DNA of 38,744 bases from Gammaproteobacteria bacterium (GTDB lineage Bacteria > Pseudomonadota > Gammaproteobacteria > Steroidobacterales > Woeseiaceae), in contig JAACFJ010000005.1 in NCBI GenBank assembly GCA_009937505.1, positions 1 through 38,744 of the forward strand. The letters are read 5' to 3'. Under the pieces are notes generated by a model. The model was not told the DNA's origin and ran no database searches. It worked only from the letters and a program-made list of their open reading frames with translations. Made by a program: the position numbers and the translations under genes. Position 1 is the stretch's first letter; each line of letters opens with the position of its first letter. Shown here piece by piece: positions 22,094-27,834 of this stretch.

Positions 22094-23332
22094 TCAGGGT
22101 GCGGAGACGACCTGGTGTATCGAGCCGCCGTAATTCACGACGAAAAGCTCCCCGTCGACCGACTCGCCAAATGCGGCAATGCCAAGGCCGGTCTCCAGCA
22201 GCACCTCGGGTTCCGTACCCGCCACGCTGTCTGCCGGGATTGCGAACAATCTGCCGCTGACGAAGTCGCCGAAGACGTACCAGCCCGCCATGTCGGGAAC
22301 CGCACTGCCGCGGTAAACGAAGCCCCCCGTGACAGAGGCGCCGAGAGAGCGGTCGTACTCCGTGACCGGGTCAATGGAATCGGTGATGCAATCGGACGGC
22401 GGCTCGAAACAGTGCGCGCCTTCGCGGTCGTCCCAGCCGTAGTCACCAGCCGCCGTGACGATGTCGATTTCTTCCCATGCACTCTGGCCGACATCGCCGG
22501 CCCATAGATCGCCGGTCTGGCGATCGAAGCTGAAGCGCCAAGGATTGCGCAGGCCCCAGGCGAAAATTTCCGGACACTCCTCACCGCCCACGGTGAAGCC
22601 CTGCGGGCAGGTCTGGTTGGCCGCGAAGGGATTGCCCGGGTCCGTTGCCGGAATCGCGTACGGATTTCCACCATCGACATCGATCCGGACCATGGTACCG
22701 AGGAGGTTGGTGTTGTCCTGCGCGCGGTCCAGCGGATCGCCGCCGCTGCCCCCGTCGCCGAAGCCGATGTAAAGATAACCGTCCGGCCCGAATACGATAT
22801 TGCCGCCGTTGTGATTCGAAAAATCCTGCAGCACGGTGAGGATTACCTGCTCGCTCGCGGCATCCAGTGTCTGCCCGCCGTCCACGCTGGAAAATCGCGA
22901 TACGTACGACGTCAGGTCGGGTGCCCCGGTGTACGAAACAAAAACCTCCGGCGTATTGGGGAAATCCGGGTGGAATGCAAGGCCGAGCAGTCCACTCTCG
23001 CCCCCGGAAATTACGCGCGCCGAGATATCCAGGAATTCCAGCGTGCCGGTCGCACCATCGTCATTGGCAAACGCGCGTATCGTGCCCGCCTGTTCGACGA
23101 CGAACCAGCGCGTCCCATCGCCCGGCGCCTGCTGCAGCGACACGGGCGCCGCGGGTACCGGTGTGAGGCCGGCGAATACCTGCTGCAATGCGACCTGCGG
23201 AGCAGCGGCCGGGGGTGGCGGCGACGGTGTTGGTGGCGGCGACACTGCAGGGCCGTCACCGCCGCTCCCCCCACAGGCCGACAGCAGTAGTGAAAACGCA
23301 GGAATAAAGCCAGCGAGACGTAGTTTGCCCAT
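22094..23332 (-). CDS. PQQ-type soluble sugar (aldose) dehydrogenase, lipoprotein
   Basis: 412 residues from ATG 23332, with GGAGA seven bases upstream. The signal ends in the lipobox LSAC (Cys at about 20), then a Gly/Ser and Pro-rich tether (about 21-45), then a six-bladed beta-propeller of the GSDH/YliI family. The segments SNHNGGNIVFGPDGYLYIG and ESGLLGLAFHPDFP are diagnostic, and the Gly-Asp-Gly-Gly calcium/PQQ loop (GFGDGGSGGD) is intact. It would oxidise sugars in the periplasm and pass electrons to the respiratory chain. Several cysteines in the mature part (QTCPQGF, EECPE, HCFEPPSDC) could form disulfides. The frame is open upstream into the repeat array, but that stretch is not coding. 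Confidence 0.9.
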   Translation of the reverse strand: MGKLRLAGFIPAFSLLLSACGGSGGDGPAVSPPPTPSPPPPAAAPQVALQQVFAGLTPVPAAPVSLQQAPGDGTRWFVVEQAGTIRAFANDDGATGTLEFLDISARVISGGESGLLGLAFHPDFPNTPEVFVSYTGAPDLTSYVSRFSSVDGGQTLDAASEQVILTVLQDFSNHNGGNIVFGPDGYLYIGFGDGGSGGDPLDRAQDNTNLLGTMVRIDVDGGNPYAIPATDPGNPFAANQTCPQGFTVGGEECPEIFAWGLRNPWRFSFDRQTGDLWAGDVGQSAWEEIDIVTAAGDYGWDDREGAHCFEPPSDCITDSIDPVTEYDRSLGASVTGGFVYRGSAVPDMAGWYVFGDFVSGRLFAIPADSVAGTEPEVLLETGLGIAAFGESVDGELFVVNYGGSIHQVVSAP

Positions 23333-23435: not shown

Positions 23436-23632
23436 TGTCGATTCGATCGACCTATACTCAAAATATGTCGAAAAATACAGGGCAAATCGACATGTCTGAA
23501 ATACCTGTCGATCAAATCGACACGTATCACGAATGTGTCGATATTTCCTGAAAATCTCGACATAGCTGAAAAAGACGTCGAAGGAATCGACACGTTCGCT
23601 AAATATGTCGATATTTTTCACTTTTTTCGACA
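23436..23632. repeat. Phased array of 12 TGTCGA/TCGACA half-sites (six palindromes)
   Basis: TGTCGA occurs at 23436, 23466, 23506, 23536, 23606 (and CGTCGA at 23576). TCGACA occurs at 23487, 23517, 23557, 23587, 23627 (and TCGACC at 23447). They pair into palindromes alternately 17 bp (N5 spacer) and 27 bp (N15 spacer) long, always separated by exactly 13 bp, so three 70-bp units stand in tandem. Half-site centres are 11, 19 or 21 bp apart, so all lie on nearly one DNA face. The sequence between half-sites is AT-rich and poorly conserved. It fills most of the 356 bases between the sugar dehydrogenase and fic starts and ends beside the fic -35. It is most likely a cooperative operator. Confidence 0.9.
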
Positions 23633-23635
23633 TAT

Positions 23636-23664
23636 TTGTCATAAAATGACCCCAGATTTAACAT
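23636..23664 (+). promoter_or_regulatory. Promoter of the fic gene
   Basis: TTGTCA (23636-23641), 17-base spacer, TAACAT (23659-23664); start expected near 23671. The -35 begins four bases after the last half-site of the repeat array. A GGAG ribosome site follows at 23676-23679. Confidence 0.6.
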
Positions 23665-23688: not shown

Positions 23689-24834
23689 ATGCCCGAATTT
23701 GACCCGAAACTGCCCTACAACGATCTGCCGCCACTGCCCCCGCCCGACGAACTCATCGAGACCAAGGCAATCCTCAAGCAGTGCATCGCAGCCCGGGTCG
23801 CACTTGCAGAGCTAAAGCAGGCCGCCGAATTAATACCGAACTCGGCCGTCCTGGTGAATGCCCTGCCGCTACTGGAGGCGCGCGCCAGCTCCGAGATCGA
23901 GAACATCGTCACGACGACCGACAAGCTGTTCGAGTTCGCGGATGTCGCTGAGGACAAGGCAGATGCGGCGACCAAGGAGGCGCTGCGCTACCGCACGGCG
24001 TTGTACGAAGGAACGAAGATGGTTCAGCGGCGCATGCTGACGACGGACATGGCAATACAAATTGTCAGTATAGTCAAAGGAGTAGAGCTTGATCTTCGAG
24101 CAGAATCTGGAACAAAGCTCAAGAACCGGGCATCGGGCGAGGTGATTTACACGCCCCCGGTGGGGCAGAAACGACTGCAGAAAATGCTCGATAACTGGGC
24201 CGAATTCATGCAGAAGAGCACCGATATCGATCCGCTGGTGCGCATGGCAGTACAGCACTACCAGTTCGAGGCCATTCATCCGTTCGCGGACGGTAATGGC
24301 CGCACCGGCCGCATTCTCAACATCGTGTTTCTCGTCGAGCAGGGCCTGCTGGACTCGCCGATCCTCTACCTGAGCCGCTTCATCATCAGCAACAAGGCCG
24401 CGTACTACCTGCTCCTGAAAGATGTTACGCACAATCAGCAGTGGGAACCCTGGATCAAGTTCATCCTCGAGGGCGTGGAAGAAACCTGCGTCTGGACGAC
24501 CGACAAGATCAAGGCTATCCGCGAACTCATGGTCCACACGGCCAAATACGTGCAGCAGAACCTGCCCAAAATCTACTCCTGGGAACTGGTCGAACTGTTG
24601 TTCAAGCAGCCCTATTGCCGCATCGGCAACCTCGTCGACACAGATATTGCGAAGCGTCAGACCGCGTCCGTCTATCTAAAGCAGCTCTGCGACCTCGGCG
24701 TGCTGAAGGAGGTCAAGTCGGGACGCGAGAATATATTCGTGCACCCAAAGTACATCGAGTTGCTCACCGGCGAGGAGAACGTCTGGATCTACTACGCGGA
24801 TATCGACGACGATGACGAGGACATACCGGACTGA
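23689..24834 (+). CDS. fic: Fic-family AMP-transferase, class II self-inhibited, winged-helix tail
   Basis: 381 residues. The Fic N-terminal helical region carries the inhibitory helix motif Ser67-x3-Glu71-Asn72 (SSEIEN), typical of class II enzymes whose own N-terminus blocks ATP binding. The Fic core has the complete motif HPFADGNGRTGR at 197-208, with catalytic His197 and Arg205/Arg208. The C-terminal 80 residues (about 300-365) read as a winged helix that could bind DNA. Such proteins AMPylate target proteins or themselves. The phased operator array directly upstream suggests autoregulation. Nucleotides 24049-24122 are AT-rich with rare codons. The gene's 3' end overlaps the convergent membrane-protein gene by 43 bases. 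The target is unknown. Confidence 0.93.
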   Translation: MPEFDPKLPYNDLPPLPPPDELIETKAILKQCIAARVALAELKQAAELIPNSAVLVNALPLLEARASSEIENIVTTTDKLFEFADVAEDKADAATKEALRYRTALYEGTKMVQRRMLTTDMAIQIVSIVKGVELDLRAESGTKLKNRASGEVIYTPPVGQKRLQKMLDNWAEFMQKSTDIDPLVRMAVQHYQFEAIHPFADGNGRTGRILNIVFLVEQGLLDSPILYLSRFIISNKAAYYLLLKDVTHNQQWEPWIKFILEGVEETCVWTTDKIKAIRELMVHTAKYVQQNLPKIYSWELVELLFKQPYCRIGNLVDTDIAKRQTASVYLKQLCDLGVLKEVKSGRENIFVHPKYIELLTGEENVWIYYADIDDDDEDIPD

Positions 24835-25583
24835 TCCGCTTCGGGCGGCGTGTTGCCTGCCTCGAAGTCGTCGGGCATGTAGTCGGTCATTTGCTGGTAG
24901 AGCAGGCCGAAGGCGGACTGGTTCATCGTATCGACGATAATACCGTCGACATCGCAGCCTCTTGCCAGCTCGAGCAGTCGGTCGAAGGTGCGCCGGAAAT
25001 TGCGCGTATGACGGCGGCGGATCTCGGTGTCATAGAGCAGCAAGCCGATGCCGCCCTCCTCCATGAATTCCATTGACAGGAACTGGCGGGCGAAGATCTC
25101 GGCATCACCATTCGACGCTTTCTGGAACATGTCGGTGACCTCATCCCGGCTGTAGCGACTGCTGCCGGCAGGGCCCAGCCCGCCCGCAAAGAGCATCCCG
25201 GTGATGCCGCCGAGTTGATGCTTGACGCTTTCAGCAATCTTGAAGAATGTCTCCTGCCGCGCATTCATCTCGGTCGCAGCAATCGCCTGGGTCTGCTTCT
25301 CCGACTGCTCCGAGGTCCGGCGCAGCATTTCCGTGTTGTTCGCGAGCTCCCGCTGCTGCATAAACAGCCCGAGCACGAGCCACAGGAACGCGAGCGGCGC
25401 GAACGCACCCTCGAGGAAGTTGCCGATCACGTCAAGCGTCAGTTCCTGGTCCGGATCCGCCGCAACGGAGCCGGCCACGAACCACAGGCCGCCGCCGATC
25501 CAGATGAAGGTGACGACCAGCCCGAACCAGATCCGCCAGTCGCGGTCGGTAATAAATCTGCGGAGTCGATTGCTTGTGCTCAT
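24792..25583 (-). CDS. Two-span membrane protein with cytoplasmic coiled coil
   Basis: 263 residues. Two membrane spans (about 18-38 and 57-75) are followed by a predicted coiled coil (about 75-115, QQRELANNTEMLRRTSEQS) and a soluble domain (about 115-240). The tail is a Ser-rich run. The layout resembles putative phage-abortive-infection proteins (putAbiC-like), where a membrane anchor precedes a soluble effector part, but I cannot confirm homology. Minus-strand TAAACT ten bases before the ATG may be a -10 giving a very short leader. It converges on fic with a 43-base overlap, so the two genes would interfere with or regulate each other antisense. Function unknown. Confidence 0.65.
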   Translation of the reverse strand: MSTSNRLRRFITDRDWRIWFGLVVTFIWIGGGLWFVAGSVAADPDQELTLDVIGNFLEGAFAPLAFLWLVLGLFMQQRELANNTEMLRRTSEQSEKQTQAIAATEMNARQETFFKIAESVKHQLGGITGMLFAGGLGPAGSSRYSRDEVTDMFQKASNGDAEIFARQFLSMEFMEEGGIGLLLYDTEIRRRHTRNFRRTFDRLLELARGCDVDGIIVDTMNQSAFGLLYQQMTDYMPDDFEAGNTPPEADQSGMSSSSSSISA

Positions 25584-26512: not shown

Positions 26513-27157
26513 CTAATCGATGCCCAGGATCTTGTGCGTTTGCAAGCTTAGCTTCCAGCGGGGGTGAGCCAGACAGTAGTCGATCGTGGCCCTGGTGTTG
26601 GCATCGCGATCTGCATCGTCCAGCGGCTGCAAATAGAAATCATTGAACTCGAGTGACTCGAATTCTTCAGGCTGCGCCACGTCCTCGGCTTGCGGATAGA
26701 CGAGCTTGAGTTCATTACCCGACGTCTGCTCGAGCGGGGCACTTCCTTTCGGGCTGACGCACAACCAGTCGATGCCCGGCGGCGCCGCGATCGTGCCGTT
26801 CGTCTCCACGCCGACCTCGAAGCCGGCGCCGTGCAAGGCATCGATCAGCGCCTCGTCCAGCTGCAGCAATGGCTCGCCACCGGTGCACACCACGTACTGG
26901 TCGCGGTGTGACTCCGAAACCGGCCAGGCTACGGCCACCGCGTCGGCCAGTGCACTGGCCGTCGGAAATTTGCCGCCACCGGGACCGCCGGTGCCGACGA
27001 ACTCGGTATCGCAGAACCTGCACACCGCTTCCGCGCGATGCTGTTCACGCCCCGTCCAGAGATTGCAGCCGGCAAAACGCAGGAACACTGCGGGGCGTCC
27101 CGTACGGGCACCCTCGCCCTGCAGCGTGTAATAGATTTCCCGGACCGTGTACGTCAT
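26513..27157 (-). CDS. queE: 7-carboxy-7-deazaguanine synthase
   Basis: Radical-SAM enzyme that contracts 6-carboxytetrahydropterin to 7-carboxy-7-deazaguanine in the queuosine pathway. 214 residues. The cluster cysteines are Cys31, Cys46 and Cys49, spacing C-x14-C-x2-C instead of the canonical C-x3-C-x2-C. This matches the insert-bearing subtype known from Burkholderia multivorans QueE. The TGGEPLL motif (SAM-binding GGE) and VETNGT are intact. The start overlaps the queC stop as ATGA, so queC-queE are translationally coupled. Confidence 0.95.
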   Translation of the reverse strand: MTYTVREIYYTLQGEGARTGRPAVFLRFAGCNLWTGREQHRAEAVCRFCDTEFVGTGGPGGGKFPTASALADAVAVAWPVSESHRDQYVVCTGGEPLLQLDEALIDALHGAGFEVGVETNGTIAAPPGIDWLCVSPKGSAPLEQTSGNELKLVYPQAEDVAQPEEFESLEFNDFYLQPLDDADRDANTRATIDYCLAHPRWKLSLQTHKILGID

Positions 27158-27834
27158 CGGATATCGAGCAAAGGATCGCGCACGCCGGCCTCGGCAAAGC
27201 CCCTGGCACGCAGCCGGCAGGCCTGGCAGTCGCCACAGGGCGGCCGGCGGCCGTTGTAGCAGGTGTGTGTCAGCGCCAACATCTCCAGCGCGCCGAGCTG
27301 CACAGCCAGTTCGACGGTTTCCTTTTTGGACCGATGCATGAGGGGCGTGTGGATGGTGAACTCGCGATCCATACCAAGCGTGATCGCCTCTTGCAATGCC
27401 GCCATCGTCTCTTTACGGCAATCGGGATAGCCGCTGTAGTCCGTCTGTGCAACACCGGTCACGAGATGCCGCACATCGTGCCGGTACGCATACGCTGCCG
27501 CAAACGTCAGGAAGATGAGATTGCGTCCCGCGACGAAGGTTACCGGCAGCTCGGTTTCCTCATCCGCCTCATCGCTTACCGGTATTGACGTATCGGTCAG
27601 AGCGTCACCGCCGAGCGCGGCAAACGTGTCGATCGGCAAACACGCGTTCGGTACGCCCGCCGCTGCAGCCACATTGCGCGCGCATTCCAGTTCGATGCGA
27701 TGCTTTTGCCCGTAGTCGAACGTAATGCTCGATACGTTGGCACGACCGAACCGATCAATCGCCCAGTACAGGCAGGTCGTCGAATCCTGTCCGCCCGAGA
27801 GCACGACAAGCGCTTTGTCCGGACCCTTGGTCAT
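27154..27834 (-). CDS. queC: 7-cyano-7-deazaguanine synthase
   Basis: ATP-dependent enzyme converting 7-carboxy-7-deazaguanine to preQ0 with ammonia. 226 residues. PP-loop SGGQDSTT at 13-20; zinc-binding cysteines 192, 200, 203 and 206 (CYNG, then CGDCQAC). It directly precedes queE, and its own ATG overlaps the stop of the upstream SDR gene (ATGA). queD and queF or tgt are not in view, so the rest of the pathway is elsewhere. Confidence 0.96.
   Translation of the reverse strand: MTKGPDKALVVLSGGQDSTTCLYWAIDRFGRANVSSITFDYGQKHRIELECARNVAAAAGVPNACLPIDTFAALGGDALTDTSIPVSDEADEETELPVTFVAGRNLIFLTFAAAYAYRHDVRHLVTGVAQTDYSGYPDCRKETMAALQEAITLGMDREFTIHTPLMHRSKKETVELAVQLGALEMLALTHTCYNGRRPPCGDCQACRLRARGFAEAGVRDPLLDIR

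Follow-up and report, generated by a model that had tools for sequence, protein, structure and literature searches.

A phased array of TGTCGA half-sites as the probable operator of SoFic genes, with copies of its unit in phages

An array of twelve phased half-sites (23436..23632, no strand assigned) lying upstream of a fic gene is very probably the operator of this gene, to which SoFic dimers would bind through their C-terminal winged helix and so keep their own dose low. The array was studied in a stretch of 38,744 nucleotides from a gammaproteobacterium of the Woeseiaceae (contig JAACFJ010000005.1), referred to here in its whole length as the window. Shown directly are the geometry of the array, its conservation, the uniqueness of the multi-site arrangement within the genome, and the link of the half-site class to both the Fic clade and the recognition helix.

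The half-sites reading TGTCGA start at 23436, 23466, 23506, 23536, and 23606, with CGTCGA (one mismatch) at 23576, while those reading TCGACA start at 23487, 23517, 23557, 23587, and 23627, with TCGACC (one mismatch) at 23447. The start-to-start steps of 11, 19, 21, and 19 repeat along the array, corresponding to spacers of N5, N13, N15, and N13, and generate a 70-bp unit that is present three times. Read as palindromes, the array starts with a short TGTCGA-N5-TCGACC carrying one mismatch (23436..23452), followed by a long TGTCGA-N15-TCGACA (23466..23492), an exact short (23506..23522) and an exact long palindrome (23536..23562), a short CGTCGA-N5-TCGACA with one mismatch (23576..23592), and finally an exact long palindrome (23606..23632), which is the closest to fic and ends 56 bp before its ATG. 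The constant spacing in this layout is the N13 of the outward-facing pair, with the inward-facing pairs alternating between N5 and N15. The original prediction of alternating TGTCGA/TCGACA palindromes with 13-bp gaps, in a 70-bp unit repeated three times, was borne out at all twelve half-sites, and a recount again gave ten exact half-sites and two with one mismatch.

A chance origin of the array was rejected, as its ten phased exact half-sites compare with two at best among 300 dinucleotide-shuffled versions of the window examined over the same span. Duplication of a sequence free of selection was likewise rejected: the units agree with one another at 22-23 of 24 half-site positions versus 18-21 of 46 spacer positions, in keeping with the earlier claim that half-sites and phase are conserved and spacers are not. 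The G+C content is 0.386 in the array versus 0.610 across the window. The conserved inverted repeats span 56-253 bp upstream of the fic start codon and constitute a putative operator. Just downstream of the array lies a weak sigma-70-like promoter candidate on the + strand (TTGTCA-17-TAACAT, 9/12, 23636..23664), and two more + strand candidates are located inside it (23517-23545 and 23587-23615), all three being consensus matches only.

The fic gene itself (23689..24834, + strand) encodes a 381-aa product that sequence comparison identifies as a close orthologue of SoFic, bearing a winged helix at its C-terminus. Its Fic_N, Fic, and SoFic-like_C domains all score above the curated cut-offs, and the PADLOC SoFic model matches it with an E value of 1.8e-119. 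In phmmer searches the protein matched SoFic chains, including 3eqx, 3zcn, and 9tch, with E values of 1e-144 to 1e-147, and, with 7e-128, chain 9vjc, annotated simply as protein adenylyltransferase; the PDB entries named SoFic among the matches were 9tb0, 9tc4, 9tch, and 9tcl. The class II inhibitory-helix motif, of pattern (S/T)xxxE(G/N), is present as SSEIEN at residues 67-72 (23887..23904, + strand), a second match to the pattern at residue 103 probably being due to chance, and the FIC motif HPFADGNGRTGR at residues 197-208 (24277..24312, + strand) is an intact HxFx(D/E)GNGRxxR. The C-terminal winged-helix domain PF21248 (residues 280-355; 24526..24753, + strand) was assigned by domain match and by modelled topology, the model, of fair confidence (pLDDT 64), consisting of helices followed by a two-strand wing. 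When submitted to Foldseek, this model had SoFic as its top match, followed at weak scores (E from 0.03 upwards) by winged-helix repressors, of which some are DNA-bound, together with other chains. The recognition helix is modelled at residues 323-336, and its proposed start and body (AKRQTAS..., residues 321-336; 24649..24696, + strand) form a clade-specific segment.

Within the window's own genome (3.09 Mb in 191 contigs, 88% complete), TCGACA-N13-TGTCGA-N5-TCGACA at zero or one mismatch was found only at this array, with five matches, and multi-site arrays are thus not scattered over this genome. Single TCGACA-N13-TGTCGA pairs do occur elsewhere in it (G000), four of them exact; at up to one mismatch they number 72 versus 11 for a reversed control of other composition, and composition may account for this genome-wide excess.

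A search upstream of Fic homologues, which had been suggested along with the original prediction, revealed the array across several families of Gammaproteobacteria, as well as on plasmids of Alphaproteobacteria and on a single viral contig. Phased TGTCGA sites were present upstream of all 42 distinct close orthologues of 70-100% identity, a set that includes the window and from which eight identical genes were dropped. A motif-blind test, in which the words at offsets 0, 21, 40, and 51 (or the mirror arrangement) have to read word, complement, word, and complement, recovered TGTCGA in 42/42 of these with 0-2 mismatches. Of 12 further rows (57-79% identity), 11 were also positive at 0-3 mismatches, the word being TGTCGC in one case and TGTCGA in the others; one of these rows (L061) is the same contig as another (L059), and the sole miss (L060) is a broken gene. 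The null of 740 usable single-base shuffles gave 4 at best. Exact phased pairs were found upstream of 59 of the 62 SoFics above 54% identity, L060 and L061 having been left out beforehand, with up to 14 half-sites in such pairs at a single locus, and the loci include plasmids of Mesorhizobium, Methylosinus, Roseibium, Rhizobium, Cedecea, and Pantoea as well as the viral contig. No exact pair at the standard spacings was seen at L070, L099, and L226, which instead carry TGTCGC-type half-sites, alone or mixed. No array was found at L060 or at L072 (truncated gene, 53% identity), nor at L100 (51%) and L262 (39%), two rows on the array side of the tree, although the helix of these last two reads KRQT. 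The distance from the end of the array to the fic start codon is 20-60 bp in many orthologues.

Several observations concern the genetic surroundings of these SoFics. The plasmid SoFics at L221-L223, L225, and L226 are located near recombinase or integrase genes, and four of the five also near repA or repC. The Cedecea fic region is matched by 380 of 5,426 E. coli genomes. In E. coli SCU-113 (L280:3172-5473), the SoFic gene is followed on the same strand by a different Fic-family gene, and a mobH relaxase gene is present in the region.

The half-site class follows the Fic phylogeny. In a tree of 64 rows, for which close relatives were thinned (12 kept of the rows above 75% identity), TGTCGA was found in 29/32 rows of one well-supported clade and in 0/30 of its sister, and TGTCGA pairs were missing from all 33 loci at 37-45% identity, among which L262 groups with the array-bearing side in the tree. 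Upstream of the sister group, TCTATACA was encountered 11 times, in 4 of 17 upstream regions, versus 0.1 expected. Exact phased TGTATA pairs were present upstream of only 5 of the 33 Fics at 37-45% identity, one of which (L256) is a gene with an internal stop, and TGTATA-type half-sites, recognised by eye or as exact pairs, were seen at the sister-group Fics L075, L078, L080, L081, L085, L089, L256, L258, L260, and L266. The arrangement at L075 is TGTATA-N15-TATACA with N14 outward pairs, giving a 41-bp period. In enterobacterial SoFics, whether plasmid-borne or from E. coli, the phase is retained and TGTCGA is mixed with TGTTTA.

The recognition helix reads (I)AKRQ(T/A)AS.YL in the array clade and mostly (V)(S/T)R.TA..YL, typically (V)SRLTA.KYL, in the sister group. 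Five genomes hold both kinds of Fic, and in three of them (G135, G044, and G018) each Fic is accompanied by its matching kind of half-site, the second Fic of G018 being interrupted by an internal stop; the second Fic of the other two genomes, G016 and G032, has no exact pair. Because the half-site class tracks both the Fic clade and the recognition helix, Fic itself is the likely binder of the array. The winged helix, named as the candidate ligand in the original prediction, gains support from this covariation of half-site, clade, and helix residues and from the three of five dual-Fic genomes.

According to the mechanism proposed here, each half-site, about A-Y-R-TGTCGA-T/A, would take one recognition helix, and the invariant outward-facing N13 pair is the best candidate for the site of one dimer. 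Neighbouring SoFic dimers would then be separated by one or two turns of the helix (N5 or N15), a distance at which they could touch and, as we propose, bind cooperatively. Bound SoFic would cover the promoter region and hold its own dose low, such control presumably being needed because the enzyme is a self-toxic AMPylator. SoFic is probably an autorepressor in this scheme, in which we infer from sequence the binding itself, the pair that serves as dimer site, the cooperativity, repression as the sign of the regulation, and a coupling of DNA binding to AMPylation.

Phd-Doc-type toxin-antitoxin operons are autoregulated, the product of the toxin locus repressing it through operator sites, whereas here the toxin, the inhibitor helix, and the DNA-binding domain are all found in one protein. 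A self-regulating Fic is already known, since CccR (YPK_0951) from Yersinia pseudotuberculosis is an autorepressor Fic with a C-terminal HTH and an inverted-repeat operator in its own promoter (PMC9755527). This operator is a single pair, AGATAATCAT-N26-ATGATAATCT, and the CccR dimer is required for binding to it (PMC9755527). The window Fic resembles CccR in combining a FIC domain with a C-terminal DNA-binding domain, as predicted by domain match and modelled winged-helix topology, and in having inverted repeats in its own promoter region, where the operator is putative. Unlike the AGATAATCAT-N26-ATGATAATCT pair, the array is a phased multi-site element composed of TGTCGA with spacings of N5, N13, and N15. 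CccR is moreover a T6SS effector, unlike SoFic, and shares 29% identity at 45% coverage with SO_4266 (PMC9755527). The original prediction, which cited no described Fic operator of this design, needs correction in that a DNA-binding Fic repressing itself through a palindromic operator had already been reported with CccR; CccR is not a SoFic, however, and its operator is not a phased array.

SoFic (SO_4266, PDB 3EQX/3ZCN/3ZEC) and EcSofic belong to the same family as the window Fic and have the same three domains. For EcSofic, an AMPylation-dependent toxicity upon expression has been reported that needs the C-terminal domain and dimerisation, along with phage defence by Sofic through abortive infection, and the control of this toxicity was called elusive (PMC12249575). 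DNA binding by SoFic had not been demonstrated as of 2023 (PMC10628234), and no SoFic operator is described in the accessible parts of PMC12249575 or PMC10628234. Another comparable protein is CbFic2 (CBU_0822) from Coxiella burnetii, which likewise has an inhibitory glutamate and a C-terminal HTH, and which binds DNA through this HTH with a change in oligomer and activity (PMC10628234). Since DNA binding alters the oligomer and activity of CbFic2, it may by analogy also set the enzymatic state of SoFic. Unlike the array, the DNA used with CbFic2 was random, without a known specific site, and a role in the host nucleus was proposed for this protein (PMC10628234).

Apart from autoregulation by SoFic, other explanations of the array have to be considered. 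It could be bound by an unrelated host regulator that controls fic, perhaps as an input that senses stress or phages, given that the array does not by itself reveal its protein and that sites are also present where fic is absent. This is nonetheless unlikely, as the half-site class follows the Fic phylogeny, accompanies fic on plasmids as well as on a single viral contig, and differs between the two Fics in three of the five dual-Fic genomes; a single host-wide regulator was rejected because two half-site classes occur within these three genomes. Hardly credible is the proposal that the array belongs functionally to GSDH (glucose/sorbosone dehydrogenase family; 22094..23329, - strand), the divergently oriented neighbour, or represents a shared intergenic element. 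The array does lie between the two divergent genes, and GSDH homologues were found in 15 fetched loci, but these are all Woeseiaceae-type, other searched fic loci without GSDH in the fetched flanks still have the array, and the gap between array and fic start is 20-60 bp at many loci. A GSDH operator is thus largely refuted by the plasmid and other-family loci that have the array without GSDH. In named-neighbour searches, on which this comparison rests because an all-against-all approach was confounded by frames antisense to fic, the dehydrogenase, the formate-THF ligase, and ORF 25574 occurred in fetched flanks only at Woeseiaceae-type loci, and fic is therefore the common gene of the array loci. 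Of three neighbour proteins scanned in the window, one was GSDH and two had no Pfam family match; the longest of the ORFs that follow downstream (24792-25583) runs antiparallel to fic and overlaps its 3' end.

It is also quite improbable that the unit is a self-spreading mobile or recombination site, such as a transposon end, a resolution site, or an attachment site, of which the phage and orphan copies would be insertions. Multi-unit phased arrays occur at fic and their half-sites follow the Fic clade, neither of which suits such a site, and in phages the half-sites are better kept than the spacers. What speaks in its favour are the copies scattered over phages and fic-less bacterial genomes, and apparently related phages that have the unit in either orientation at one place. 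Recombinase or integrase genes were found near five of the seven plasmid fics fetched and no annotated recombinase near the other two, the gene tables being incomplete; among these seven plasmid loci and the window neighbours, no recombinase gene was common to the array loci.

In bacteria, the four-half-site pattern with up to two mismatches was detected in 13 of 369 genomes drawn evenly from the gammaproteobacterial genomes, versus 0 for the reversed control, and in 8 of these 13 it is located directly upstream of a SoFic. In G194 and G140, fic remnants lie just downstream of a site, that of G140 comprising 14 residues (E 0.57) at the position expected for the fic start. Such decayed fic remnants behind the unit (L233 and L242, very short at the latter) suggest that fic was lost and the site left behind. 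No recognised fic remnant was found within 3 kb of four sites, those in G198, G270, and G368 and the second site in G140, which are single operator-like units (L229, L230, L234, and L240). The genes around these four sites resemble, as we take it, defence or toxin-antitoxin genes. These fic-less copies keep the SoFic geometry and half-sites yet need an explanation of their own. The expectation that the array would not occur away from fic thus stands for the multi-site array in the window's genome and fails for the four fic-less bacterial sites and the many phage copies. A fic-less array piece in E. coli E700025 (L281:3009-3110) lies beside the flagellar genes fliH/I/J, at the end of a glycosyltransferase gene, and other E. 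coli rows have the same annotation.

One 57-bp unit of four half-sites, widened to TGTYKA, was found in 108 IMG/VR contigs (within L104-L357), whereas the spacing controls yielded 0 (spacings 14/12/7) and 2 (N5 changed to N6). The exact TGTCGA unit was present in 28 IMG/VR contigs, with 0 for an other-spacing control. At least 120 viral loci carry three half-sites, and among the matches listed 28 have the full four-half-site unit, one of them (L138) with fic. By their flanks, the 108 unit-bearing contigs fall into 50 context groups, and 57 of 101 testable unit sites are intergenic versus 18.6 expected, about three times more often. The Fic search covered 106 of the 108 contigs, many of them fragments, and detected fic in one (L138); a subset of 50 contigs gave no match in a search with no positive control of its own, L138 having been matched in the other searches. 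No relative was confirmed when the window protein was compared with viral contigs, in a search that reaches close relatives only, and blastn of the Mesorhizobium plasmid site against phages returned chance-level matches only.

With the E. coli array as query, the phage collection yielded 30 matching records, of which one is a Salmonella genome contig and which include phages ECP26 (L275), PVPSE1 (L276), BIS47 (L277), and KB57 (L278). The BIS47 site as query gave 41 records, the same Salmonella contig included, and the PVPSE1 site gave eight. Fourteen of the 15 phages fetched are recorded as Vequintavirinae and KP13-16 as Stephanstirmvirinae. The unit is present with at most one mismatch in 12 of the 15, with N13 in seven and N14 in five, and is decayed in B9-1, KpS11, and KNP2; a SoFic-like C domain above the cut-off was found in none of the 15. 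In the seven N13 phages the half-sites agree at 92% and the spacers at 68%, a comparison in which the site finder favours the half-sites. Enterobacterial phages display the enterobacterial half-site mix, and the ECP26 site is up to 93% identical over 73 bp to the E. coli array units, spacers included. Because this match extends through the spacers, phage ECP26 probably acquired its copy from the fic array of a host.

Tentatively, the phages might use the SoFic operator unit as a counter-defence, in which an AMPylating abortive-infection enzyme would be countered by decoy DNA and not by a protein. Phage replication would multiply the 57-bp unit, and its copies would capture the host's few SoFic dimers and hold them DNA-bound and harmless. 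There is an even chance that the phage copies are not decoys but either serve as promoters or operators of the phage, incidentally under the control of host SoFic, or are passengers copied from fic arrays. The identity of the ECP26 site to an E. coli array unit (93% over 73 bp) and the decay of three of the 15 fetched copies are consistent with this explanation, whereas the 50 context groups, the intergenic excess, and the preservation of half-sites over spacers favour use, not drift.

The phased array and its phage copies were not found described among the leading matches in the open-licence literature, a weak negative that extends to a phased multi-dimer operator and a SoFic-wide half-site code. 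With the geometry, the half-site code, and the candidate reading residues, the SoFic defence family gains a sequence-level regulatory rule, by which sites can be predicted from sequence, also in E. coli, and which marks out the C-terminal winged helix as the candidate reader of the operator. If the decoy proposal were true, the phage copies would represent operator DNA employed as counter-defence against SoFic. Phage 4MG (L358), whose recorded host is K-12 MG1655, is also among the cultured phages with the unit. Elsewhere in the window, two adjoining minus-strand genes (26513-27834) resemble, by our assumption, QueE and QueC of preQ0 synthesis.
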